Below are positions 4,204 to 25,086 of a stretch of 25,086 nucleotides of DNA, one piece after another. Source of the stretch: a virus; the IMG/VR virus record IMGVR_UViG_3300001371_000007, positions 1 to 25,086 of that record. One strand, written 5' to 3'. The notes under the pieces were generated by a model. The model saw only the letters and a program-made list of their open reading frames with translations. It made no database searches and was not told the origin of the DNA. The first letter of the stretch is position 1, and each line of letters starts with the position of its first letter. The position numbers were made by a program, and so were the translations under genes.

Positions 4204-4911
4204 ATGGCTCATGTTTGGGATTTACAAGGAAAAGACTTAGAAAAATTTGAACGAGTTTTAAAAAGATTTGCATCGACTGATTACCCTAAAGTAAATGGCG
4301 CGGCATTAAATACAATTGCCTATGAAGTAATGGGAAAATCTCATCAAATTGCTAAACAACGTTTCATGATGAGAAATAAATTCACAGTTAAATCAATACA
4401 ATTCCAAAAAGTCAGAGGTTTCAATCCTGGATCTCAATTTTCGAGTGTCGGATCCACCATGGATTATATGGAAGATCAAGAATTCGGAAAAAATAAGACA
4501 AAGACAGGAAAGAAAGGTGTCGCTATTCCAACGACGACGGCCTCAAACGAATCATTTTCGACTAGACCACGTCGTAAATTAGTAACAAGATCAAGACGGC
4601 GAACGAATATAAATCTGATGAAGTCGACTGTGAGAACAAAAAGCAGAAAGCAACATATCATAGGTATAATAAGAGAAAAAAGATCTGGTAGACGTTTCGC
4701 TTATCTCCCGATACAGAATGCCCCAGGAATATATATGATCACCGGAAAAGGAAAAAGAGCAAAAATATTTTTGATTTATGACCTTTCCAGATCATCAGTG
4801 ACTATCAAAAAAGCGCCTTGGTTACTTCCAGCCGTCAATTATATTAGGCCAAGAATGCCTTTGATATATGTCAGAACTGCAGAAAAAATACTTAAGAAGT
4901 CGTTTCTTTAA
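4204..4911 (+). CDS. Basic phage virion/tail-morphogenesis-like protein, on the opposite strand
   Basis: This 235-aa protein is very rich in Lys and Arg (for example RPRRKLVTRSRRR). It has a DYMEDQEFG...KGVAIPT block in the middle and a C-terminal pattern of GIYMITGKGKRAKIFLIYDL then APWLLPAV. I associate this pattern with a phage structural or minor-tail protein family usually found near head-tail genes; the exact role is not known to me. GGAGG lies 8 nt before the ATG. It is the only plus-strand gene supported here, between the endolysin (divergent) and a fibre-accessory gene (convergent). No convincing -35/-10 pair is visible upstream, though TATAAA occurs at 4155. Its late-type product on the opposite strand suggests a local inversion or insertion. 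Confidence 0.75.
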   Translation: MAHVWDLQGKDLEKFERVLKRFASTDYPKVNGAALNTIAYEVMGKSHQIAKQRFMMRNKFTVKSIQFQKVRGFNPGSQFSSVGSTMDYMEDQEFGKNKTKTGKKGVAIPTTTASNESFSTRPRRKLVTRSRRRTNINLMKSTVRTKSRKQHIIGIIREKRSGRRFAYLPIQNAPGIYMITGKGKRAKIFLIYDLSRSSVTIKKAPWLLPAVNYIRPRMPLIYVRTAEKILKKSFL

Positions 4912-5303: not shown

Positions 5304-5936
5304 TTATGCTGGTACAAATGGAGGTTTTTCTTCCAATAAAAAATCACCGTAGACAACAACCCTATCAAAAGTCTGACTCGGGTTGATGTATAATCTTAAA
5401 TTGATGGGAGCAGCATTTCTTGTCTTTATAAACGTATTGATCGGGTTCCCCAGATTTGAAATAAGTGCAAAAAACGGTTGATATTGTCTAGTATTTATAT
5501 TTGACACCTGTAAATCATAGGTAGTTGTGGTAACTGAACATTGACCGTAAATAAAGAGTTCAGAATGCCATCGACCTGTCACAACTTTATATGGCCGCGC
5601 GCGAGCAAATAAAGTTGTCCAACCGCCACTGGCAGTGACTGTGAAATGTGTTCCGTCGCCTTTGTATTCGACAAGATACTCATCATTTTTGCTATCAATA
5701 GCAAATTGAAGTGCTTGAAATATCTGTGAATTAAATTTATTCTCCTGACTTCCATCCGCGATTATTGATGCATAATTCATCATTCTAGTGGCAAAACCCC
5801 ATAAATCTGAAGGCCAAACTCTTTCATAGGGAGTTTCGTCAGCTGCTATTTCAGATGTCCTATTTTTGAAAGTTCCATCAGGATTATTTACATCAATTAT
5901 CGTCTTACCAGGGTAAAGATCTTTTAGTTTGTGCAT
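5304..5936 (-). CDS. Tail fibre/adhesin-like protein, paralogue 3
   Basis: This 210-aa protein is the third and most diverged copy of a tandem family. It shares the N-terminal block K-DLYPGKTIIDVNNPDGTFKN, then W-x-SDLWGFAT, a QIFQALQF helix, a GGWTT block, and a C-terminal -EKPPFVPA. Between these the sequence differs from the other two copies, as expected for a receptor-contact surface. It follows the gp48-like gene and the other two copies, where Mu-type phages place fibre genes. It is likely a baseplate-attached fibre or adhesin; the receptor is unknown. Confidence 0.6.
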   Translation of the reverse strand: MHKLKDLYPGKTIIDVNNPDGTFKNRTSEIAADETPYERVWPSDLWGFATRMMNYASIIADGSQENKFNSQIFQALQFAIDSKNDEYLVEYKGDGTHFTVTASGGWTTLFARARPYKVVTGRWHSELFIYGQCSVTTTTYDLQVSNINTRQYQPFFALISNLGNPINTFIKTRNAAPINLRLYINPSQTFDRVVVYGDFLLEEKPPFVPA

Positions 5937-5963
5937 TTTCTTTTATGGTACGAATGAAGGTTT
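5920..5963 (-). repeat. 44-nt junction repeat of the fibre duplication (copy A)
   Basis: These 44 bases are identical to 6577-6620, offset 657 nt, which is exactly one gene pitch. The repeat covers the start of one fibre gene, the short intergenic gap and the last codons of the preceding gene. This is the junction expected after tandem duplication by unequal crossing-over. Confidence 0.85.
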
Positions 5964-6593
5964 TTCAGTCAGTCTAAATGTTCCTGAAATCGCGAAGGAA
6001 CTAGTTAAAAGAGAAGGGAAAATAAACCTCAACTTATTGGTTCCTGGAATGCAGAAAGAATTTTTTGCTATTGCATTTGATGGAGAATTAAGAAAACTGA
6101 CTGCCGGTTGGAATGGATATAAGGCACTGAAATTGATTCCGCTTATATTCAGTTCGTAGCTTGTCAACGTGGTTGGCGTGATCGTTCCATAAATAAATAT
6201 TTTAGCGCGCCAAACATCGTTTGAAGGAACACCAGGTGTTTTATTTACGAACGGTACTATCCTCGCAATTACAGTCGTCCAACCATATAAACCGCTGACG
6301 AAAAAATCAACAGATAATCCTTTATACTCTTGTGAATAGAGGTCTTTATTTTTTTTGATAAGGAAATCTAAGGCTTCATAAATTTGAGAACTGTTGATAT
6401 TTTCTTCCGTTCCATTGGGTATAATTGATGCCTTATTCAGCAAATGAGTTGCAAACCCCCAAAGATCAGCCGTCCATAATTCGTCAAATGGTGTTCCCTT
6501 TAAAAGTTCACTTATTCTGTTTTTGAATGTACCGTCCGGATTGTTCACATCTATTATCACATTGTCCGGATAAATGTCTTTTAGTTTGTGCAT
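5943..6593 (-). CDS. Tail fibre/adhesin-like protein, paralogue 2
   Basis: This is a 216-aa paralogue of its two neighbours. The shared parts are KDIYPDNVIIDVNNPDGTFKN near the N-terminus, LWGFATHLLNKASIIPNG, and the final TEKPSFVP. Its 5' end and the junction with the next gene carry a 44-nt identical repeat, so the copies arose by tandem duplication. The middle and C-terminal beta-rich segment varies. The ribosome site is weak (AAAAGAAA just before ATG), and expression probably depends on coupling to the upstream copy, whose stop lies 6 nt away. Confidence 0.6.
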   Translation of the reverse strand: MHKLKDIYPDNVIIDVNNPDGTFKNRISELLKGTPFDELWTADLWGFATHLLNKASIIPNGTEENINSSQIYEALDFLIKKNKDLYSQEYKGLSVDFFVSGLYGWTTVIARIVPFVNKTPGVPSNDVWRAKIFIYGTITPTTLTSYELNISGINFSALYPFQPAVSFLNSPSNAIAKNSFCIPGTNKLRFIFPSLLTSSFAISGTFRLTEKPSFVP

Positions 6594-6620
6594 TTTCTTT
6601 TATGGTACGAATGAAGGTTT
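6577..6620 (-). repeat. 44-nt junction repeat of the fibre duplication (copy B)
   Basis: This is the partner of 5920-5963, identical over 44 nt. A second shared block of 40 identical bases lies inside the genes at 6428-6467 and 7079-7118. Together they show that recombination between copies is recent or maintained by gene conversion. Confidence 0.85.
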
Positions 6621-7250
6621 ATTAAGTAACCTGAAATCACCAAACATTGCATAAAAATCAGTCAGGACACTACTCGGATTGTAAAAAATTAATTGCCCAG
6701 TATTTGGGACCGCTGTTACTGTTCCACCAGGTGGATTATCAGTTAGATTTACAAAACTTAAACCAGGTTGGTTTCCGTAATCGATTGAAAACGTAATATT
6801 TGAAATAGTGAGCGTATAAGAAATGACAGCTGAATTTGTTTTCAAACCCCAAATGAATATTTTTGCCCTCCACATATCATCTAAAGCAGCTCCAGGGGTT
6901 GGGTTTAAGTATGGTCTTATCGTTGTAAGAAGTGTTGTCCAACCTGTTCCTGATACCGTGAAATCTGGCGGTATATATTCCTTTAGGTAAAGATCATTGT
7001 AAAGGGCTATTAGGTATTGAATTGCATCAAAAATCTGAGAATTGTTGATATTTTCTTCCGATCCATCTGGGATAATTAATGCCTTATTCAGCAAATGAGT
7101 TGCAAACCCCCAAAGATCTGAAGCCCAACGTCGTTCGAATGGTGTGCCATCTTTTAAGATTCCATTAGTCCTATTTTTGAACGTTCCATCAGGGTTATTT
7201 TCATCAATAGTCACTAAACCTGGATAAATATCTTTTAGTATATGAGCCAT
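6600..7250 (-). CDS. Tail fibre/adhesin-like protein, paralogue 1
   Basis: This 216-aa protein is the first of three tandem copies in transcription order, directly after the gp48-like baseplate gene. The conserved N-terminal half (LKDIYPG..., NPDGTFKNRTN, SDLWGFATHLLNKALIIPDG) probably attaches to the baseplate or mediates assembly. The beta-rich C-terminal half (ending NKPSFVP) differs among copies and is the likely surface-binding part. Each copy is much shorter than classical long fibres, so these may be short fibres or tail-tip adhesins. The function is inferred from location and from the conserved/variable pattern. Confidence 0.6.
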   Translation of the reverse strand: MAHILKDIYPGLVTIDENNPDGTFKNRTNGILKDGTPFERRWASDLWGFATHLLNKALIIPDGSEENINNSQIFDAIQYLIALYNDLYLKEYIPPDFTVSGTGWTTLLTTIRPYLNPTPGAALDDMWRAKIFIWGLKTNSAVISYTLTISNITFSIDYGNQPGLSFVNLTDNPPGGTVTAVPNTGQLIFYNPSSVLTDFYAMFGDFRLLNKPSFVP

Positions 7251-7256
7251 TTAGTT

Positions 7257-8054
7257 TTAAACGTAATTAATTAACAAACCGATTTTTTGTTGCATCGGAA
7301 AAGTTGATAAGAGTATCCGTTCAAATTCCCTTTTTCTATCTGCTGGAACATCAGCAAAATCAGGGAAAATTTCACCACCGACATAAACAACAAATCTAAA
7401 ACCACTAACCGTATTTGGAACCGGATAATATTTTGGAAAAGGCTGAAGCCCAAAATAAATACCGCATCCAGCCAGCGGGTTCCCACAATCGGAATCATCA
7501 GCACCGCAAAAAGTTTGATAGACTGGTAGTATAGTCACCGGTCCAATGTTTACAAGTAATGTTCCAATTCCAGATATTAAAATACCGCATCCAGCCAGCG
7601 GGTTCCCACAATCGGAATCAGGGTTTCCACATTGTGTTTGATATATTTCAGGATTGTAATTGACCAAATATTCATTAGGGTTTTTTGTGTCGTACAAACC
7701 ACCGCCGAGATCAGTCCACCACTCGTGAATAAAGACATTAGTGAAACCTGAACCATGAATAATATCTTGTAAATAATCTTTTCCCTGACCACCTAATGAC
7801 CTCCAGCGGCCTATAATATTTTCTCTTCTTTCTGCCTCTGTTCCGCGCGAAACGATATTGAATTGCTGTTCAAATTTTTCGATTTCCCTTGTGGTCAGAG
7901 GAAAAATATCAAGATAAATAAGTTCGATGTGCTCTTTGATATCGTTCAGAAATTCCGTTGCCCCAATAAAAAACTTTTTCAGCAGTTTATCGACAACTAG
8001 CTTCCAAACCCTTGAAAGAGGCAAAAGATGTTTTAAAATTTTTAAGAATGTCAT
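7257..8054 (-). CDS. Mu gp48-like baseplate/tail protein (DUF2313)
   Basis: This 265-aa protein resembles Mu gp48 / YmfQ (DUF2313): a helical N-terminus starting LKHLLPLSRVW, then REIEKFEQQF, and RRENIIGRWRSLGGQGKDYL, followed by a G-F-x-NVFIHEWW strand. It sits in the baseplate between the wedge proteins and the fibres. The C-terminal part contains a duplicated cysteine motif, C-x6-C-x6-C at residues 142/149/156 and again at 183/190/197, ending NPLAGCGI both times. It overlaps the baseplate-J gene by 4 nt (ATGA). The family call is good; the duplicated Cys unit is unusual and may bind metal or form disulphides. Confidence 0.8.
   Translation of the reverse strand: MTFLKILKHLLPLSRVWKLVVDKLLKKFFIGATEFLNDIKEHIELIYLDIFPLTTREIEKFEQQFNIVSRGTEAERRENIIGRWRSLGGQGKDYLQDIIHGSGFTNVFIHEWWTDLGGGLYDTKNPNEYLVNYNPEIYQTQCGNPDSDCGNPLAGCGILISGIGTLLVNIGPVTILPVYQTFCGADDSDCGNPLAGCGIYFGLQPFPKYYPVPNTVSGFRFVVYVGGEIFPDFADVPADRKREFERILLSTFPMQQKIGLLINYV
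7457..7497 (-). repeat. 41-nt direct repeat encoding the Cys motif (copy 2 of protein)
   Basis: This stretch is identical to 7580-7620 over 41 nt, with a 123-nt (41-codon) period. It encodes DSDCGNPLAGCGI in the gp48-like protein. Such exact identity in a short coding duplication suggests a recent event or conversion. Confidence 0.85.
7580..7620 (-). repeat. 41-nt direct repeat encoding the Cys motif (copy 1 of protein)
   Basis: This is the partner of 7457-7497. The protein similarity extends a little further on the N-terminal side (YQT-x-CG in both copies) than the exact DNA identity. Confidence 0.85.
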
Positions 8055-9256
8055 GGCCCGATAAAATTTATCTCATTTAGTTTTGATTTTTCTCCCTCCT
8101 GGAGATAATAAGATGGAATATCAACAGCTGGAACAGCAGCATTTTGAAGTGTTAAAGAAGAAAAAGTGCCATTAGCAGCGCTGACAAAACTGTTTACTAT
8201 TGATGAAAGATCTTCTCTAGAAACAATATATTTAGACGGAAGGACTGTTACACCCTCAATAAATGGTTCACGCCCTAAAAAATAATTTGTCACTGCATTA
8301 GTAATATCAGCTTGTATTGTCACTGGATCTTCAACTTCAAGTCCATATACCTGAACATTAAAAGCAACTCTGGTAATTGGATTCATGTTTAATTTGGCGT
8401 TTACAGGCTTCCTGGTCTGTTTTCCATCATCATCAAAAGTGATTGCATAAGCGACCTCATCAAGTTGTTCAGGCGTCGGAATTCCGTCTGGTGTCTCAAT
8501 AGTTTCTATTACTTCCACGTAAATATCGACAAAGCCTTCGTCCCCAGTATATGGGTAAATAGATACTACTCCGAGAACAGTCTCTCCCCATAATTCATAG
8601 TCAACACCTGAGCCACCTTGAGGAATTTTTTGAAATCTATCGATGACGCGCTGTCTATAATTTTGTTCCTGTTCACCGTCAGCCCCAGTTTTTGAAATCG
8701 AATCAACGGTTGTATCACGAGCGACGTTTGATTGTGGATTGACAAAAGAAACGATGTCACCAATTTGAAGATTTCCTATGATACCGGCTCCCGAATTTCC
8801 ATCAGCGTCTGACTGAGCCCTGATTGTTCCCTGAACTATTTCCGCATCGAGTAAAACACTTGTAATCAATAAATAGGTTATTCCGTTAATTGCTGAAAAC
8901 AATTGTGTTCCAGCCAATAAAGATCCAACCTGATTTTCAACTATGATATTAATGGTTAATTCAGCTTGAATTGGCGAAGCAGGGTCGCCGATTCCTATTA
9001 ACCTTCCCCATTCAACCAACGGTGTTATTTTTTTTCCTAATATTTCTACTTCCTTAAAACTTGCTGTTCTGACAAAGATTTGTAAAAATATCCAGCCAGC
9101 GTATTTGTAAATAAGGACAAAAATCCCGGAAAATGCCTTTGCTAGTACCCTTGAAAAAGACAAAGGCAAAAAAGGTATTGTCTGACTAATAGCCGAACCT
9201 ATTTGATTTACAATATTATCACTGATTTCTTTTGTCGTCGGGGTATAGTGAGCCAT
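8051..9256 (-). CDS. Baseplate J-like wedge protein (Mu gp47 type)
   Basis: This 401-aa protein has the baseplate_J pattern: a GSLLAGTQLFSAINGITY strand pair, then a GIIGNLQIGD block, TGADGEQEQNYRQRVIDRFQ, and GGSGVDYELWGETVLGVVSIYPY. It ends with a domain for contact with neighbouring subunits. In Mu and related myoviruses gp47 forms the inner baseplate wedge around the hub, like T4 gp6. The length is close to the usual size of about 350 to 400 aa. Start and stop overlap the neighbours (1 nt with gp46-like, 4 nt with gp48-like), typical of coupled late tail genes. Confidence 0.92.
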   Translation of the reverse strand: MAHYTPTTKEISDNIVNQIGSAISQTIPFLPLSFSRVLAKAFSGIFVLIYKYAGWIFLQIFVRTASFKEVEILGKKITPLVEWGRLIGIGDPASPIQAELTINIIVENQVGSLLAGTQLFSAINGITYLLITSVLLDAEIVQGTIRAQSDADGNSGAGIIGNLQIGDIVSFVNPQSNVARDTTVDSISKTGADGEQEQNYRQRVIDRFQKIPQGGSGVDYELWGETVLGVVSIYPYTGDEGFVDIYVEVIETIETPDGIPTPEQLDEVAYAITFDDDGKQTRKPVNAKLNMNPITRVAFNVQVYGLEVEDPVTIQADITNAVTNYFLGREPFIEGVTVLPSKYIVSREDLSSIVNSFVSAANGTFSSLTLQNAAVPAVDIPSYYLQEGEKSKLNEINFIGP

Positions 9257-11272: not shown

Positions 11273-12554
11273 AGTACAACATTTCCCTACCCTTTGGTAA
11301 TTCTAAAATTTCATTTCCTACCAAATTGTTTGAGGTGATTATAAAATCAAGAACGTCATCCACTTTTCCGTAATATTCAGCCGCAAAATCGATTATTGTT
11401 CTGTCTCTGTCTAAAATAATCGATCTTTCCTGAAGGCTTGAAAAAACAAGATTTGTAAGATTCCCAATTGCCAGCGCGTAGATAGATTGTAAATCCTGGT
11501 AACCTTCCCCTGTATCAATAAGGTCATTTGTTCCTGGTTCCCTGGTTGGTAACAAATCTTGAATCAGGTTGTTTCTATTCTCATCTGACCAGTTTATATA
11601 ATTATCAAAGCTGCTTTTTAATTGTTCAATAGCGTTTATAACATCTGTTCGCGTCGGATAGTTTGCATTATCATCAAGCGTTGATTCAATCGATGCAGCA
11701 ATCACCGACGAAGCCACCAAAGAATTGATTGAAAATTGGTTAGATGTCTTTGAATCGTTTCCAGCTGTAAATTGATTAGAAGGACCGTTAATCATTGTTG
11801 AAAGCAAATTGTTATAAGCTTCCAATTTATCTAAAATTGATGAAGCTGATCTTGCCGGTAATCTTGATAAACTTATCATCTGAAATGCTAACAAGGATGG
11901 AGTACCAATCAAAATATCAATACTATCGTCAAGAATATCGAATGCAGCATTAAAAGCTCTTTCAATGCTTTCACTTGCTTTTGCAATTGCAGTTAATTCG
12001 CGTTTTATTTTTCTGATTGCTGCCTTTGCTGATGCTATCATATCGAGCGTTTCAGAAAGTGTCCCCAAACTAATAGATTTTCCAAAATTATCTGAAGTAT
12101 TTACTTCATAAGCAAACAAGCTGTCATCAATTGTATTTTGTACGCTGATGTTAACAATCGGGAAAACAATTTTTATTGTTTCCCAAAATGTGATGTCATA
12201 AACAACTTGGTTTGCTTCTTTGACTAGATCGTCTCTTCTTTTGACAGATCCAAAAGGAACGGCGTCAAACTGGCCATAAAATGGTAAACGAAGTTTCCAA
12301 ACTCCTTTTTCATCAATCGCAGAATCAAATTTTTTTGCTGTTTTGTCGTAATCAGAACCCCAAAAGATCACTTTTAAGGGGAATAAGTGACCTGATCTTC
12401 CCAAATCTTGAATATAAGTTCCGTCCACATCTGGAAATTCAAAAGCAGTTGTCTTTTTGGGAGTTTCCTTCTCTAGAACTTCCCAGGTAAACCTAAATTC
12501 TTCACCCGAAGGGGAAATGCAAACAGCTTCTGATATTCGGTCATTCCATGCCAT
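11265..12554 (-). CDS. Mu gpN-like tail protein (DNA circularisation N-terminal domain)
   Basis: This 429-aa protein starts with the pattern of the DNA_circ_N family: SPSGEEFRFTWE, TTAFEFPDVDGTYIQDLG, FPLKVIFWG, then WKLRLPFYG and VVYDITFWE. Despite the family name, Mu gpN and its relatives are baseplate/tail-tip proteins acting next to the tape measure. The C-terminal half is mostly helical, ending in a short strand (ILELPKGREMLYYV) reminiscent of a peptidoglycan/LysM-like tail module. It overlaps the tape measure stop by 1 nt (TAATG) and the hub gene by 8 nt. Confidence 0.88.
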   Translation of the reverse strand: MAWNDRISEAVCISPSGEEFRFTWEVLEKETPKKTTAFEFPDVDGTYIQDLGRSGHLFPLKVIFWGSDYDKTAKKFDSAIDEKGVWKLRLPFYGQFDAVPFGSVKRRDDLVKEANQVVYDITFWETIKIVFPIVNISVQNTIDDSLFAYEVNTSDNFGKSISLGTLSETLDMIASAKAAIRKIKRELTAIAKASESIERAFNAAFDILDDSIDILIGTPSLLAFQMISLSRLPARSASSILDKLEAYNNLLSTMINGPSNQFTAGNDSKTSNQFSINSLVASSVIAASIESTLDDNANYPTRTDVINAIEQLKSSFDNYINWSDENRNNLIQDLLPTREPGTNDLIDTGEGYQDLQSIYALAIGNLTNLVFSSLQERSIILDRDRTIIDFAAEYYGKVDDVLDFIITSNNLVGNEILELPKGREMLYYV

Positions 12555-14446
12555 TAAAAACCCCCTGATGTCGCTAATCTGATTTTTGATCCGTTACCTG
12601 TTGGGGTAGACAGTTCAGCTCTTCCTGTTTCATCTTTGATCAATAACGTTGATGATTTTTCAGTCACCTTTTCATTGATGGCAGTAGATATCCTTTCTTC
12701 CTTTGTTGTCATTTCCGGTTTTTTTGCCTCTCCGCCTTTCTTTTCCTCTTCAGGTTTTCCAAACAAAAAGGAAAACTTTTCACCAATTCCTGAAATTCCA
12801 GAAAAAAGATCTTTAAAAGGAGTTGTCACACCAGAAATGAAATTCAAAATCGCGTCGATTGAATCTTTTACTTTTGCTGTTATACTGTCCCAAACATCAG
12901 AAACAACTGCTTTGACGGTTTCCCAATTTTTGACCAGTAAGGTGATTCCGATAATCAAAGCCGCAATAGCGATACTGATTGCAAGCAGTGGGTTTGCCAT
13001 CATCACCGCATTAAGAGCAAACATTGCCACTTTAGCAACCACCAAAACACCTTGAAACAATAACATCGCAGCCTTGACAGCAAACATGGTTGTTTTGAAA
13101 ACTATAATTGCTGCATTTGTAAAAAGAATGATGCCTTTTAGGGCAATCATTGCAGCAATGAACATTCCAATAATTTTGATTGATCCTGAAAGTACGTTGT
13201 TAATGTCAGATACAAACGATTGAGCAAGATCTTGGTTTGTACTAATGGCGGAATCAATAGTTCTTACTGTTTCAGTTATTTTTTCAACAAAATCGGAAAA
13301 TGGACCTTTTTCAAGACCAAAGATCGTCAATTGCAAACCTTCGAACGCTGATTTCAAAGAATTAACTCGACCTTGCAACGTATCCCTCATGGTGGATGCC
13401 ATTTTGTTGCTTGATCCCGTTGCTGCTTCTAATTGCTTTCGATATTCCTTTAATTTTTCGGCACCTGTCCCAAGCAAAACATTGACACCTGCAATCGGTA
13501 TCTTACCGAATATTTCTTCCAATATTGCGGCCTGTTCAGCTGTCCCGAACTTTTTGACGCCTTTTTCCAAATCGCCCAAAATGTCGATGACATCGCGCAA
13601 ATTCCCTTCGTTATCTTTGGTTGCGACGCCCATCCTTTTTAACATCTTAGCAGCACCACCGACAGGAGCGGCCAGCCTCAAAAAGACATTTTTAAGCGTC
13701 GTTCCGGCTTCCCCTCCTTTTATACCTGCATTTGCAAGCTTGCCGGCTAATGTTGTAAACGTTTCAATCGAAGCACCAGCTGATTTTGCAACTGGTCCAC
13801 CTTCAGCTATTGCTTCGAACAGCTGTTCCATGTTTGTATTGGCGGTTGTGGTTGTTTTAGCCAATACATCATTGACACGCGCTAAATTTTTGCTAAGTTT
13901 TATTGGATCTTCAGTTGCAAGACCGAACGCGCCCAACGTATCAGTTGCGATATCGGTTGCCCTGGCAAGATCAATTGACGCCGCCGTTGCAAGGTCAACA
14001 ACTCCAGGTAATGCTGCGATTGACATCTGAGCATTGAAACCGGCCATTGCAAGGAAATTGATTGCTTCAGCTGATTGAGTAGCTGTGAATTCTGTTTCCT
14101 TTCCGGTTTTTTTGGCTGCAGCTTCGAGTAATTCAAATTCTTTGGTCCCTTTCTTTATTTCACCTGGAAATTTTGCTGCCGCTGACACTATTGTTTGTTC
14201 AAATTGCATACCAGTGACAACAGCATCTTTTGCAGCCAAGTTGAGCGCTAAAAATCCAGCAGTAGCTGAAACGGCTAATACTTTGCTGAATTTTTTGGAA
14301 AGGTTGTTGACTGAATTTCCGATTGATACAAGGTTGGCTTTTGCAGAACGAGCAAACTTTCCAACAGAATTTGACATGCGGCTCACTGGAGCAGTGATCT
14401 TGTCAATTCCCTTGAATATAGCCTCTATTGAAAATTTGCTCGCCAT
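12554..14446 (-). CDS. Tail tape measure protein (TP901 core type)
   Basis: This 630-aa protein has the TP901 tape measure core near the N-terminus: FEQTIVSAAAKFPG, KTGKETEFTATQSAEAINFLAMAGF, then TDIATDTLGAFGL, TTTTANTNMEQLFEAIAEGGP and GGEAGTTLKNVFLRLAAPVGGA. Residues about 415 to 500 are strongly hydrophobic with several possible membrane helices. The C-terminus is polar. It sets tail length and is ejected ahead of the DNA. By the usual rule of about 0.15 nm per residue, the tail would be around 95 nm. The start at 14446 follows the frameshifted chaperone stop by 9 nt. Confidence 0.95.
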   Translation of the reverse strand: MASKFSIEAIFKGIDKITAPVSRMSNSVGKFARSAKANLVSIGNSVNNLSKKFSKVLAVSATAGFLALNLAAKDAVVTGMQFEQTIVSAAAKFPGEIKKGTKEFELLEAAAKKTGKETEFTATQSAEAINFLAMAGFNAQMSIAALPGVVDLATAASIDLARATDIATDTLGAFGLATEDPIKLSKNLARVNDVLAKTTTTANTNMEQLFEAIAEGGPVAKSAGASIETFTTLAGKLANAGIKGGEAGTTLKNVFLRLAAPVGGAAKMLKRMGVATKDNEGNLRDVIDILGDLEKGVKKFGTAEQAAILEEIFGKIPIAGVNVLLGTGAEKLKEYRKQLEAATGSSNKMASTMRDTLQGRVNSLKSAFEGLQLTIFGLEKGPFSDFVEKITETVRTIDSAISTNQDLAQSFVSDINNVLSGSIKIIGMFIAAMIALKGIILFTNAAIIVFKTTMFAVKAAMLLFQGVLVVAKVAMFALNAVMMANPLLAISIAIAALIIGITLLVKNWETVKAVVSDVWDSITAKVKDSIDAILNFISGVTTPFKDLFSGISGIGEKFSFLFGKPEEEKKGGEAKKPEMTTKEERISTAINEKVTEKSSTLLIKDETGRAELSTPTGNGSKIRLATSGGF

Positions 14447-14455
14447 TCATTAACT

Positions 14456-15066
14456 TTATGATTGTGACGTGATTTTTTTCAAACCTGGTTTGAGACCATC
14501 ATAAAAAAACTTGATCTCTTTGATCGTAATAGTTCTTAAATCTGGCAGCGATGAATAATCACTGCAAATCTGTAAAATCATCAAACTAATTCCGTCTAAA
14601 CCTCTTGCTTTTTGTTCAGTTCCGCTTTGAATGATCTTACAAACTAAGAACCTAAAAAAAGCTGAACAACTCCCAGGCAAAACTTATAATCCGGTCCTTG
14701 CATTTTTGCAAAAATCTTTGGATCTTGGCTTACTATATTTCCTAGTATTCCATTCATTTTATGGACGTTTTGTCTGTCTTTGTGTCTGTCCATTGATAAA
14801 TAAGCAATACCGTATGGAAGTTTGAAGTGAAGAGTTTCGATGTCATTGACGGATTTCCTGAGCGTGTAAATGATATCACCGTTTTCATCGATGACAGCGC
14901 GTCCTTTCATTACAGCTCTAACTATTCTACGCTTTAAGCGTTCAAAATCTTCTTTGCTTTCAACGTCCATTGTGCTGATATCGTCGTCAATTTCCCATTC
15001 TTCAACAAATCGTTTGAATTCATTTTCAGCTGTTTCCAGATCTACTTTTTGATTATCGGTTTCCAT
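14456..15066 (-). CDS. Tail assembly chaperone, -1 frameshift product (gpGT-like)
   Basis: This is the fusion made when ribosomes shift -1 at the heptamer T TTT TTA (14659-14653). The first 138 residues are those of the shorter chaperone; reading then continues as RFLVCKIIQSGTEQKAR for 65 more residues to the stop at 14456, giving 203 aa. In lambda the equivalent G and G-T proteins load the tape measure and recruit tube subunits, and the shift is conserved across tailed phages, including Mu-type ones. The downstream part has no sensible start of its own: an ATG at 14680 exists but lies inside the first gene without a ribosome site. Position just before the tape measure gene supports the assignment. 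Confidence 0.85.
14644..15066 (-). CDS. Tail assembly chaperone, unshifted product (gpG-like)
   Basis: This 140-aa acidic helical protein begins ETDNQKVDLETAENEF. A central RIVRAVMKGRAVIDENGD block and IIYTLRKSVNDI follow; this motif is shared by phage tail assembly chaperones. It lies between the tail tube and the tape measure, as the family always does. The end of the gene (Q-L-F-L-G-S then stop) contains the T TTT TTA slippery sequence that gives the longer fusion form. No strong ribosome site precedes the ATG at 15066 (ACCAAA), so translation is probably coupled to the tube gene 7 nt upstream. Confidence 0.85.
   Translation of the reverse strand: METDNQKVDLETAENEFKRFVEEWEIDDDISTMDVESKEDFERLKRRIVRAVMKGRAVIDENGDIIYTLRKSVNDIETLHFKLPYGIAYLSMDRHKDRQNVHKMNGILGNIVSQDPKIFAKMQGPDYKFCLGVVQLFLGS
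14653..14659 (-). promoter_or_regulatory. -1 ribosomal frameshift site T TTT TTA
   Basis: On the minus strand the codons CAG CTT TTT TTA GGT TCT TAG contain T TTT TTA in the correct phase for a tandem -1 slip. The same heptamer works in HIV-1 gag-pol. After the slip the next codon is AGG in the -1 frame, which stays open for 65 residues. The zero-frame stop is only three codons further on. I did not identify a downstream stimulatory stem by eye. Confidence 0.85.
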
Positions 15067-15073
15067 TTTGGTT

Positions 15074-15457
15074 TTATTGTTGTGTTAATATTCCAACGCC
15101 AGACAAACCAAAAGTGCAAGTAGCGTTAGTATTTGAATATTTTAGATCATCCGTAATTTGTAATGATCCTTGCCAGACAGCACCGCTTGAATATGTGATA
15201 GTTGCCGCGAAAAAATCGTTTCTGTCTGCGAGCTCCTGCAAAAATTCATGATCGCCCGCGAAATCATCACAAACGACTGACAGACCATCCAGCATCAATG
15301 GCACCCTTGTTTTTATCAATCTTGCCGTTCCATCGCCATTCGCCATGACTTCATTTTTAAAACCTCCTATCTGTCTGTTGACTTCTGCATCAGCAGGAAC
15401 AGAAAAATAGCGGCCAGCAAGATCAATACTTTCTATGCTTCCACCAACTGCACTCAT
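15074..15457 (-). CDS. Tail tube protein (Mu gpM-like)
   Basis: This 127-aa beta-rich protein opens with the pattern GGSIESIDLAGRYFSVPADAE, then a GGFKNEVMANGDGTARLIKT block. A LVCDDFAGDHEFLQELADRN-like region (SVVCDDFAGDHEFLQELADR) and a final GLSGVGILTQQ follow. This is the standard sequence layout of small myovirus tube proteins of the Mu type, which stack as hexamers inside the sheath. It has a clear AGGAG ribosome site and follows the sheath gene by 11 nt. Confidence 0.93.
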   Translation of the reverse strand: MSAVGGSIESIDLAGRYFSVPADAEVNRQIGGFKNEVMANGDGTARLIKTRVPLMLDGLSVVCDDFAGDHEFLQELADRNDFFAATITYSSGAVWQGSLQITDDLKYSNTNATCTFGLSGVGILTQQ

Positions 15458-15468
15458 TTATTATTCTC

Positions 15469-16947
15469 CTAAACAGGTGTTCCAAAATAAAAGCCAAAAT
15501 TTGCAATGATTGATATTATCGTTGTATTACCTGAAATTTGATAAGTAAAATCAACATCTAATCGCCTTGGATTACTTGGACTAATCCCGGCGACGATTGT
15601 CTTTTTTGCTGCTTCGGGATCAGAGATAATTGCTTCAAGCGCTAAACCATCAATCATTTTAGCAATGTCAGAAACGGCGCTTTTAGGTTTCCGAGCGTCA
15701 GGGTTTACGGTTGCTTGATTGTCAGGAATCAACACTTTCCCTTTCCATGCATCAGCTTCAAAAATTAGACTGAGATTGAAAACAACATTCATCACTTTGA
15801 TAATGTCATTTACGTATCTGTATGCTGGAGGATCCTCACCGGTTGGATGATAAAAAGTCACTGTATCTGATAATTCAATGATATTATCAACAATTTCAAC
15901 AGTCGAACAACCACCAGTGACGGCAACTTCGCGGCTTAAATAATCCCATTGGTCGGTTTCAGCTCCTGGTTCTATACCGTTTATTTTTTGACCGGCATAG
16001 TCAAGCGGTGGATTTTCATTTGCTACAACAGCAATCCTTGAAACCATTCTCGCAGTAATAACAGCCGGAAAGTGTTTTGAACCTGGAGCGCTCAAAAAAC
16101 AATTTGTTCTGACAGTTTTATTTGCTTCAGGTGTTATAATCGCCGTCAACACATCGGTTTCTACTGTTGATGTAAAAACAATGGCAGGTTTCCTGACAAG
16201 TGCTCCCCATCGAGGCTCAAAAAATTGATTATACTTATCAAGACTATCAGTGTCTGCAGCTTCCATACAATTGATGACTAATGTTTCCCAAATGTTTCCA
16301 ATCTGTGACAAAGCGGTGTCAACATCAGGGTTTATTGTTCCACCAGTTGGCTGAACGATTGTGAAATCAATTCCAGCAACTGTACCAACAATATTGATGA
16401 ATATATCATTTCCGCTCGATCCTTTCCATTTAGCGACAAGCTCAACGTCTGTTCCATTGTCTATTGCATTTACAGGCATATCAATGATTGCATTGATTGC
16501 CGCTGTGATTGCTGCTGTTGCTTCTGATACTATTGCATCCTTTAGCAAGACAAAAGCTTGTGATTTTATATTATTGATTTCAATAATATAAGTCTGTGTT
16601 TCCGTTTGAACACCAACCGGCGTGATTGATCCAGTTGAGGCAATAGCCAGTGGACCATCCTTCAACGGAAAAATAGTCACTGGAATTATTCCTACACCGT
16701 CCCCATTTGCCGGCAACAACTCTTTAACCGCTAAATGAAGTGGGGAACCGTACCCGTAATTATCACCAACAAATTTTGGCGTTAAAACTCTGACCTTATC
16801 GGTTGTGTAGGAAGCCTGAGCAAGTGTTGATCCCTGTCCAATAACAGCAATCCGCATTGGTAATAATTTAACGCCGCCTCTCAGATTTTTAAAAGCTGTT
16901 TCTATTCCAATGACGCGCGCGACGGCTGATTCACTTACTGCAACCAT
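15469..16947 (-). CDS. Contractile tail sheath protein (Mu gpL-like)
   Basis: This 492-aa protein has the sheath pattern: an N-terminal RVIGIETAFKNLRGGVKLLPMRIAVIGQG segment, YGYGSPLHLAVKELLP, a variable domain in the middle, and a conserved C-terminal half. That half runs from CSTVEIVDNIIELSDTVTFYHPTG through DIIKVMNVVFNLSLIFEAD to the final strand (DVDFTYQISGNTTIISIIANFGFYFG). The sheath contracts to drive the tube and spike through the envelope. Its presence makes this phage a myovirus. The length is close to Mu gpL (495 aa). AAGGA sits 8 nt before the ATG. Confidence 0.93.
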   Translation of the reverse strand: MVAVSESAVARVIGIETAFKNLRGGVKLLPMRIAVIGQGSTLAQASYTTDKVRVLTPKFVGDNYGYGSPLHLAVKELLPANGDGVGIIPVTIFPLKDGPLAIASTGSITPVGVQTETQTYIIEINNIKSQAFVLLKDAIVSEATAAITAAINAIIDMPVNAIDNGTDVELVAKWKGSSGNDIFINIVGTVAGIDFTIVQPTGGTINPDVDTALSQIGNIWETLVINCMEAADTDSLDKYNQFFEPRWGALVRKPAIVFTSTVETDVLTAIITPEANKTVRTNCFLSAPGSKHFPAVITARMVSRIAVVANENPPLDYAGQKINGIEPGAETDQWDYLSREVAVTGGCSTVEIVDNIIELSDTVTFYHPTGEDPPAYRYVNDIIKVMNVVFNLSLIFEADAWKGKVLIPDNQATVNPDARKPKSAVSDIAKMIDGLALEAIISDPEAAKKTIVAGISPSNPRRLDVDFTYQISGNTTIISIIANFGFYFGTPV

Positions 16948-23124: not shown

Positions 23125-23381
23125 AAATCAACCCTTACTTTTCCGTCAGTCGCCTTGTGATAGACATAAACGTCAATCAACTCTTGTGAATTTATTTCAC
23201 TCGTTTGATACTGCATTTTGACTTCTGGTTGCTCTGTAGGTTCAGGATCTCCTGTAAGTCTGTATGTATGATACCACTCTGAATCAGTCGGTTCAATAAT
23301 GTGAACGAATCCTTCCAAAACTGAGGTTGCTACTATCACCCACTCATTAGCTGTAACGGGAACAAAAACTGGATTTGCCAT
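23121..23381 (-). CDS. Hypothetical 86-aa phage protein after the portal
   Basis: This small beta-rich protein (NEWVIVATSVLEGFVHIIEP, HTYRLTGDPEPTE) reads as a compact beta-sandwich-like fold, perhaps a decoration or fibre-like head protein. I do not recognise a family. Its ATG overlaps the portal stop (TGATG), so it is translated by coupling, and its stop overlaps the next start by 4 nt. Confidence 0.55.
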   Translation of the reverse strand: MANPVFVPVTANEWVIVATSVLEGFVHIIEPTDSEWYHTYRLTGDPEPTEQPEVKMQYQTSEINSQELIDVYVYHKATDGKVRVDL

Positions 23382-25086
23382 CAGTTAGCCATTTCAAAAA
23401 ATTGATTTAATTTATCTTCCATGATTTCTTCGATACTATCGCTTATCAAATTTTTTATTTCTTCTTTCTGACTTAAAAAATTTGAATTGTTCTCATTGGA
23501 TAAGGAAAGTGATTTTTGCTTTATCAGCCCCGCATCAACAAGAGGTTTGAGTGTTTCTGCCAACAATTCATTTTCTTTTTTAAGTTGTCTTGCAACACGA
23601 GTAAATTTCATTCCGGTCAGTTCCTTTGCACTTCTATCACGAGTCGAAAAACCTTCCGCGCACATGTCCTTTTTAGATTTAACCTCTTTAACCGGGTCAA
23701 CATGAGGCTTTATTGCTCCAGACCAATCGGAATCGATCCAAGCTCCAAATATTTCAAATTTTTCTCTGTTGAAATATGATTCTAAAAATCCGGGGGCTTC
23801 AATTCTGTCAGTCAAAGCCATGGAAACCAGCCAGTTTTCATGTCTTGGTTTCAGAAAATCATCAGAAAATTCACTTCTTTCTTTATTGAGGAAAATTGCA
23901 AATTCAGAATTTGCCATACGGGAAGAAGAATAATTCGAACGAAAAGCAAGTTTAAGGATTTCCGGAGGAACTTCGCAAGCCCACGAAATAGCATTGATGA
24001 TTGTGTCTTCGAAAAGTTGAAAATTGACATTAGGTCTTTTTGTGTCAAATCCTTGCGGTTCCTCTCCTTTTGCTAATTCTTCAATTCCCATGCCGGGAAC
24101 CCAATTATTTATTTTAAAATCTCTGGTTTCTCCGTTTTCATCAGTTACTGTTTCAGTTCCTTTTCTAGTTGCACCACCGGAAAGAGGTCTTGTCCCTATT
24201 CTGTCAGAAGTTTTCTTGATAAAAAGAGCAATCATTGAATTGATAACAGCCGCCCTTTGTTCACTGTCTCTATATCGATCAATTTCTTTGAGCGATTGAG
24301 CGATGGCAGCAAGCAAAGGAATTCCTCTTACATCATCCAGTAATCTTTTTGTTCCGTAGATCAACCAGGCAACACGACGTCCTGAATTATCACCGTAAGC
24401 GGGGATTTTCTTGGATACGTTTTTTTTATTGATTGTAGCTTGAATATAAAATGCGACGTGACGGTCATTAGAATCAAGTTCAACGCCGTGAATTATTCTG
24501 TGCCCCTTGTCTTCTGCCTGTTTAATTAAGGATTTTTCTGGAGGTTGTTTGATGTGTCTCCCGTCAATAATTTCTGTGACAGGCAATTGCGTTTTATCAT
24601 CCTGTCTCAATATGACCAATGCATCACCTGAGATCAAAGCTGTTTTCTTTGCAACTGCTTGCAACTGACCATCTGTGTATTGTCCCTTGGCGTCAACCAG
24701 GTCTTTATTGTTTCCCCATATGCGATAGAGATTTTCAACATTTTCTGACCAAGCATTAATGAAATCGTCATCTAATCCTAAAACATCTCCATTTGGTGTA
24801 GCTTCGAGCGAAAGTCCGGTGTTAATTATGTTTGTGATCAGGCGATTGATTAAACCGCTTGCATATAGATTTTCAGTGAAAAGCTGGACTGACCTTAAGC
24901 GCAACGTCCAGTAGTCAACAAATTCATAATCCTTTGTAATGCCAAAACCGCCGGGAAATTTATCACCGTCAAACAAAGAATTAAAAATATTTGATGTAAA
25001 TAATTTGTATGTTATCTGATTTACTAATTCTGACGTAGAAGTAGCGGCGGAGTCATTTTGACTTTCGATTGGTGGCGGGACTGCTG
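23381..25086 (-). CDS. Portal protein (lambda B type), 5' end beyond the window
   Basis: The frame stays open to the right edge (at least 567 codons), with no ATG in the last 36 codons visible there, so the true start lies outside. A TTG at 24976 gives a 531-aa frame, but the open upstream frame (Q-N-D-S-A-A-T-S...YKLFTSN) makes that start unlikely. Recognisable lambda-type portal blocks are GLINRLITNIINTGLSLEATP, an LVDAKGQYTDGQLQAVAKKT region, RHIKQPPE, GTKRLLDDVRGIPLLAAIAQSLKEIDRYRD and AISWACEVPPEILKLAF. The portal forms the 12-fold ring at one capsid vertex for DNA packaging and tail attachment. The C-terminus is helical and acidic. Confidence 0.9.
   Translation of the reverse strand, partial: AVPPPIESQNDSAATSTSELVNQITYKLFTSNIFNSLFDGDKFPGGFGITKDYEFVDYWTLRLRSVQLFTENLYASGLINRLITNIINTGLSLEATPNGDVLGLDDDFINAWSENVENLYRIWGNNKDLVDAKGQYTDGQLQAVAKKTALISGDALVILRQDDKTQLPVTEIIDGRHIKQPPEKSLIKQAEDKGHRIIHGVELDSNDRHVAFYIQATINKKNVSKKIPAYGDNSGRRVAWLIYGTKRLLDDVRGIPLLAAIAQSLKEIDRYRDSEQRAAVINSMIALFIKKTSDRIGTRPLSGGATRKGTETVTDENGETRDFKINNWVPGMGIEELAKGEEPQGFDTKRPNVNFQLFEDTIINAISWACEVPPEILKLAFRSNYSSSRMANSEFAIFLNKERSEFSDDFLKPRHENWLVSMALTDRIEAPGFLESYFNREKFEIFGAWIDSDWSGAIKPHVDPVKEVKSKKDMCAEGFSTRDRSAKELTGMKFTRVARQLKKENELLAETLKPLVDAGLIKQKSLSLSNENNSNFLSQKEEIKNLISDSIEEIMEDKLNQFFEMAN

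Follow-up and report, generated by a model that had tools for sequence, protein, structure and literature searches.

Bacteriophage lambda has a flexible tail, and the frameshift in its tail assembly chaperone gene takes place at the heptamer G GGA AAG. In the lambda model, G occupies the tape measure and the major tail protein is recruited by T; the frameshift product is the minor one of the two (PMC5009743). For the contractile-tail phage P2, the product E+E' has been assigned to a -1 shift at T TTT TTG (PMC3091744; P2 record), and P2 and its relatives were reported without a strong downstream hairpin (PMC3091744). P2 E and Mu gp41 belong to the family Phage_TAC_7 (PF10109), and the joined product is annotated in both the P2 and the Mu records. 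A programmed chaperone frameshift of this known kind is a well-known phage device. Among bacterial genes, dnaX shifts at A AAA AAG with a strong stem-loop and an efficiency of about 50%, SD-like stimulators have been established for dnaX and many IS elements, and U_UUU_UUA shifts more weakly than A_AAA_AAG in E. coli (PMC5009743).

Here, we analyse a stretch of viral DNA of 25,086 nucleotides (IMG/VR record IMGVR_UViG_3300001371_000007, positions 1 to 25,086; hereafter the window), in which a chaperone frameshift at T TTT TTA had been predicted from the letters of the DNA. The original prediction cited lambda and Mu as precedents. It is correct that tail chaperone frameshifts are known, but the nearest precedent is P2 E+E', and Mu gp41 shifts by -2 (Mu record; PMC5009743), whereas the window and its relatives, with the exception of one locus (L197), have a -1 arrangement. 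The likeness to P2 E+E' lies in the contractile tail, in the position of the site between the tail tube and tape measure genes, in a T run that serves for the -1 shift close to where the first frame ends, and probably in not requiring a strong downstream hairpin. The differences from P2 are the last base of the heptamer (T TTT TTA in the window versus T TTT TTG in P2 and in most relatives of the window), the length of G (140 aa here versus 91 in P2), and the negligible sequence similarity between P2 E and the G profile (1.5 bits). Mu gp41 matches the same profile weakly (8.2 bits), and Mu-like tail genes (Baseplate_J, gp44/GpP, gp48) surround the locus of the window. In Mu, too, the chaperone locus is placed between the genes for tail tube and tape measure.

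The heptamer had also been described as being of the HIV-1 type rather than that of lambda, a comparison that makes it look odder than it is, as a T-run heptamer is ordinary in this setting; its use in a contractile-tail chaperone was already established, because P2 E+E' shifts at T TTT TTG. HIV-1 gag-pol, which has a stem-loop stimulator, has only the heptamer U UUU UUA in common with the window, and the resemblance is convergent. In bacterial dnaX as in the window, where it is a candidate stimulator, an SD-like sequence lies about 10 nt 5' of the -1 heptamer. A literature search for TTTTTTA together with tail assembly chaperone, which had limited coverage and therefore says little, found nothing. 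The central claim, that a tail assembly chaperone is made by -1 frameshifting, is supported by the relatives, the gene position and the modest fold similarity of G to a known chaperone. We consider it very probable that two tail assembly chaperones, G and GT, are made here from one start codon by a programmed -1 frameshift.

The chaperone locus and its two frames

The window is A+T-rich (GC 37%), with its genes on the minus strand. The PHROGs and Pfam matches listed in Table 1 show that the chaperone locus is flanked by the tail tube gene and the tape measure gene; phrog_4648, which is matched by the zero-frame ORF, is a family of unknown function. The 3' end of this ORF reads CAG CTT TTT TTA GGT TCT TAG. 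Here T TTT TTA has the right phase for a -1 shift (XXY YYZ are zero-frame codons), and two sense codons follow before the stop. The sequence thus confirms the predicted in-phase T TTT TTA joining two overlapping frames before the tape measure gene. Recomputing the lengths also gave the predicted values, 65 added residues and a G+T fusion of 138 + 65 = 203 aa, for which the predicted junction-spanning peptide is VVQLFLRFLVCK. An error in the T run of a single assembly is unlikely, because a second contig, IMGVR_UViG_3300005832_000014, has 100% identity to the window over 3953 nt.

Table 1. Features of the chaperone locus and of the adjacent tail genes, with positions in the window
Feature	Position	Strand	Basis
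Tail tape measure protein (context)	12554..14446	minus	phrog_1533, 7.1e-84; PF10145, 7.7e-45
Open -1 frame for a C-terminal domain of the T type, with 65 residues past the shift	14456..14683	minus	homologous frame in relatives
8-bp hairpin in the T frame, 87 nt past the heptamer	14545..14565	minus	RNA folding
Possible stem-loop with long stem and loop of about 40 nt, weak candidate stimulator	14567..14645	minus	RNA folding
G-type tail assembly chaperone ORF, zero frame, 140 aa	14644..15066	minus	phrog_4648, 8.7e-26
Zero-frame stop TAG of the G ORF	14646..14644	minus	
Slippery heptamer T TTT TTA, -1 shift site	14653..14659	minus	family conservation and synonymous-codon test
SD-like GGGAG, 10 nt upstream of the heptamer, candidate stimulator	14670..14674	minus	anti-SD pairing
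Tail tube protein (context)	15074..15457	minus	phrog_4699, 1.7e-34
Tail sheath (neighbour)	15469-16947		phrog_165

We also found three tandem paralogous tail fibre-like genes on the minus strand (5304-5936, 5943-6593 and 6600-7250; phrog_26525), which are about 45-55% identical, two of them having an identical 20-nt leader before the ATG. In addition, a minor tail protein-like ORF (4204-4911; phrog_4688, 2.3e-37) is located on the plus strand, opposite to the remaining tail genes.

The chance level of the heptamer was counted over the 7375 codons of the window's genes, where any in-phase XXXYYYZ accounts for 1.4% of codons and TTTTTTN for 0.22%, and T TTT TTA itself is found in phase six times. 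For an overlap of 13 codons, the corresponding chance is about 3% for TTTTTTN and 17% for any heptamer. In the window sequence alone, the heptamer is weak evidence for a frameshift; therefore, the weight rests on the relatives. Other in-phase T TTT TTA sites (in 5304-5936, 23381-24976 and 8051-9256) lead into -1 frames of 4-21 residues and were dismissed.

As to the identity of the first product, its AlphaFold model has a pLDDT of 93, and the top PDB match of this model is the HK97 tail assembly chaperone 2ob9 with a modest score (VIA-align Z 4.5, rmsd 4.5 over 78 residues), clear of the next match (Z 2.7), although the same chaperone is a weak match in Foldseek (E 1.4). Matches in BFVD include a named tape measure chaperone and a named tail assembly chaperone. 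Phage_TAC_7 is matched by 26 of the 60 aligned G-family sequences (best 8.7e-7), while the window's own G protein has no match in Pfam, PF10109 included. The T domain matched nothing in Pfam, PHROGs or PDB, its model had no convincing PDB match (Z under 3), and the profile searches of solved structures returned chance matches only. When the gene position is taken into account as well, no reading other than a G/GT chaperone function has real support.

The -1 register and the shift site among relatives

A tblastn search with the first ORF retrieved 25 phage records at about 26-36% identity. The annotated relatives inspected have the gene order of the window, with this ORF directly before the tape measure gene, and the second frames are homologous to one another and to the -1 frame of the window. 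Scans of viral contigs with single proteins matched only the near-identical contig mentioned above, and one alignment (A1) had no stretch with enough conservation for scanning; alignments of the second domain, used as queries against viral contigs, raised the collection to 197 loci in total. No host is assignable, because a scan of genome contigs gave no confirmed relative. At 70% identity of the first ORF the loci form 76 clusters, and it should be noted that these clusters have common ancestry, so that combined counts overstate independence.

The second part is in the -1 register, always overlapping the first, in 192 of the 193 loci where both parts were recognised. The sole exception, L197, has its second frame in the +1/-2 register; it reads AAGGAGGTG TTC CAC CTT TTT CTG GAT GAG TGA at about 1869-1900, with a strong SD just 5' of TTT CTG, and either the shift direction could have switched (TTT to TTC, +1) or the second frame could be coupled to an ATG. 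In the 16 annotated phage records that were inspected, the two parts are never joined, in line with the expectation that gene callers miss it.

At the homologous position, 49 of the 76 clusters have an in-phase TTTTTTN, namely TTTTTTG in 39, TTTTTTA in 7 (the window among them), TTTTTTC in 2 and TTTTTTT in 1. The T TTT TTA of the window, one base away from T TTT TTG, is thus used by a minority of the family. GGGGGGN is present at the site in 3 of the 76 clusters; in L030, L168 and L181, the T run at the junction, close to the G stop, is replaced by an in-phase GGGGGGA or GGGGGGG. The site is CTT TTT AT(G/T) in seven clusters and CTT TTT CTG in one, while 16 have a TTR ATG form, mostly CTT TTA ATG GAY TAG, with the second domain still in the -1 frame. 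The TTR ATG group includes L043 (1890-1926), L052, L074, L174 and L191, and often has GAGG 10-13 nt upstream.

The -1 frame is kept among the relatives, but the heptamer is not kept by all of them. The original prediction was to count as refuted if relatives had both frames but no heptamer, and taken literally such relatives exist, since 24 of the 76 clusters (about one third) have no canonical heptamer and yet keep both frames. They do not refute frameshifting, however, because the -1 register and another nucleotide-constrained site are kept. Judged from these alignments, the heptamer appears to be one of several solutions in the family.

The constraint at the nucleotide level is seen in the spelling of the site. 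Of 43 clusters with Leu-Phe-Leu, 41 write it CTT TTT TTR, where the codon usage of each locus would predict 1.4, and in the TTR ATG group Leu-Leu-Met is written CTT TTA ATG in 14 of 16 clusters, against 0.9 expected. The CTT TTT TTR spelling persists even in phages of 60-66% GC, where its expected probability is mostly 0.0002-0.005, and without selection acting on the nucleotides themselves such T runs in G+C-rich genomes are difficult to account for. Selection on the -1 residues encoded upstream of the slip does not explain the spelling, because the -1 frame is read only after the slip.

Could the -1 frame instead be a separate small gene, with its own start and translationally coupled to the end of G, so that no fusion is made? 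Some public records do annotate the T part as its own ORF, and the window has an upstream TTG at 14680 in the -1 frame, with further TTG/ATG beyond. However, the SD at the TTG is weak (-3.3), and the first starts after the site in the window, TTG and ATG, come at about the 26th-27th codon, within the conserved domain. From 12 codons before the site (or the open start) to 12 codons after it, the -1 frame has no ATG, GTG or TTG in 30 of 72 clusters, and no ATG or GTG in 39 of 72. Moreover, a separate gene would need neither an invariant -1 register nor the CTT TTT TTR spelling, and we regard this explanation as very unlikely.

Transcriptional slippage on the seven consecutive T of the window, which would place part of the mRNAs in the other frame, is improbable to much the same degree: the run is shorter than the approximately nine A/T described for bacterial polymerase (PMC5009743), the relatives use five T (CTTTTTA), four T (CTTTTA) or six to seven G, and transcriptional slippage gives mixed products, whereas the direction here is -1 in nearly all loci. 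That two unrelated overlapping frames met by chance, with only G being used, can practically be dismissed, as the domain encoded by the -1 frame is conserved even between distant phages (alignments A2 and A6), lies in the -1 register in all loci except one and has the tape measure gene next wherever that gene is annotated, however readily six in-phase copies of T TTT TTA may arise in an A+T-rich genome.

For a programmed -1 frameshift, the sites of this family offer different possibilities of re-pairing. At CTT TTT ATN, full re-pairing is possible only for tRNA-Phe; at CTT TTA ATG, only tRNA-Leu can re-pair, from UUA to UUU, which is what happens in the A site of HIV; and a few members (TTA TTA ATG, TTG TTG ATG) do not even have this last option. 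The -1 register is retained almost throughout the groups with non-canonical sites, and the upstream SD-like element is retained at the level of the group. Tentatively, and with a little under an even chance in our estimation, the site may have drifted within the family from tandem slippage at CTT TTT TTR to sites with re-pairing in the P site only (CTT TTT ATN/CTG and CTT TTA ATG GAY TAG). The non-canonical clusters that keep both frames are the only unusual part of the system.

Candidate stimulators of the shift

The GGGAG upstream of the heptamer would pair with -6.8 kcal/mol, which in the window alone is not significant against synonymous randomisation (p 0.30). In the family, the potential to pair with the tail of the 16S rRNA is highest 8-10 nt 5' of the heptamer, and the SD-like element exceeds synonymous randomisation both in 49 clusters (Wilcoxon p 1.8e-6) and in the TTR ATG group (p 6e-4), where in both cases the shared ancestry of the clusters should be kept in mind. 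A recognisable SD precedes 13 of the 25 window genes checked; therefore, the host can probably use an SD-like stimulator. The chaperone gene and the tape measure gene (14446-15066) have no recognisable SD themselves, and may be coupled to the preceding gene.

Folding of the RNA downstream, which had been proposed as a check on the prediction, revealed a stem that starts 7 nt past the heptamer; at 80-90 nt its z is about -2 to -2.8. However, an equally good fold is given by about 10% of the window's 90-nt stretches, and the window has no close relatives for covariation. The mean z of downstream folding in the clusters is -1.0 at 60 nt versus -0.14 in control stretches. A conserved downstream RNA structure was dropped as a defining element, the signal being scattered among clusters from strong to none.

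Proposed mechanism and implications

For the slippage itself, its efficiency, its stimulators and the binding partners, we infer the following course. Most ribosomes would stop at the TAG and release the 140-aa G form, while a minority would slip back by one nucleotide on T TTT TTA, where either tRNA-Phe re-pairs from UUU to UUU together with tRNA-Leu from UUA to UUU, or an incoming Phe pairs in the -1 frame. The slipped ribosomes would then add 65 residues and yield the 203-aa GT form. The efficiency is probably increased by the SD-like GGGAG upstream and perhaps also by the stem-loop downstream. On the pattern of lambda G/GT, the tape measure protein would be coated by G, while tail tube subunits would be recruited by GT through its T domain, a division of labour that would set up polymerisation of the tube; neither G nor GT need be in the virion.

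On this account, a large and mostly unannotated family of contractile-tail phages would join the users of a frameshift that sets the ratio of two chaperones, with a second product that is absent from the records of all annotated relatives inspected. In addition, the variety of homologous sites (TTTTTTG/A/C, GGGGGGN, CTTTTTAT and CTTTTAATG) lends itself to the question of what nucleotides are really required by the bacterial ribosome for a programmed -1 shift. If the drift of the site is true, these loci would form a natural series in which re-pairing of the A-site codon is dispensable in a phage programmed -1 shift.
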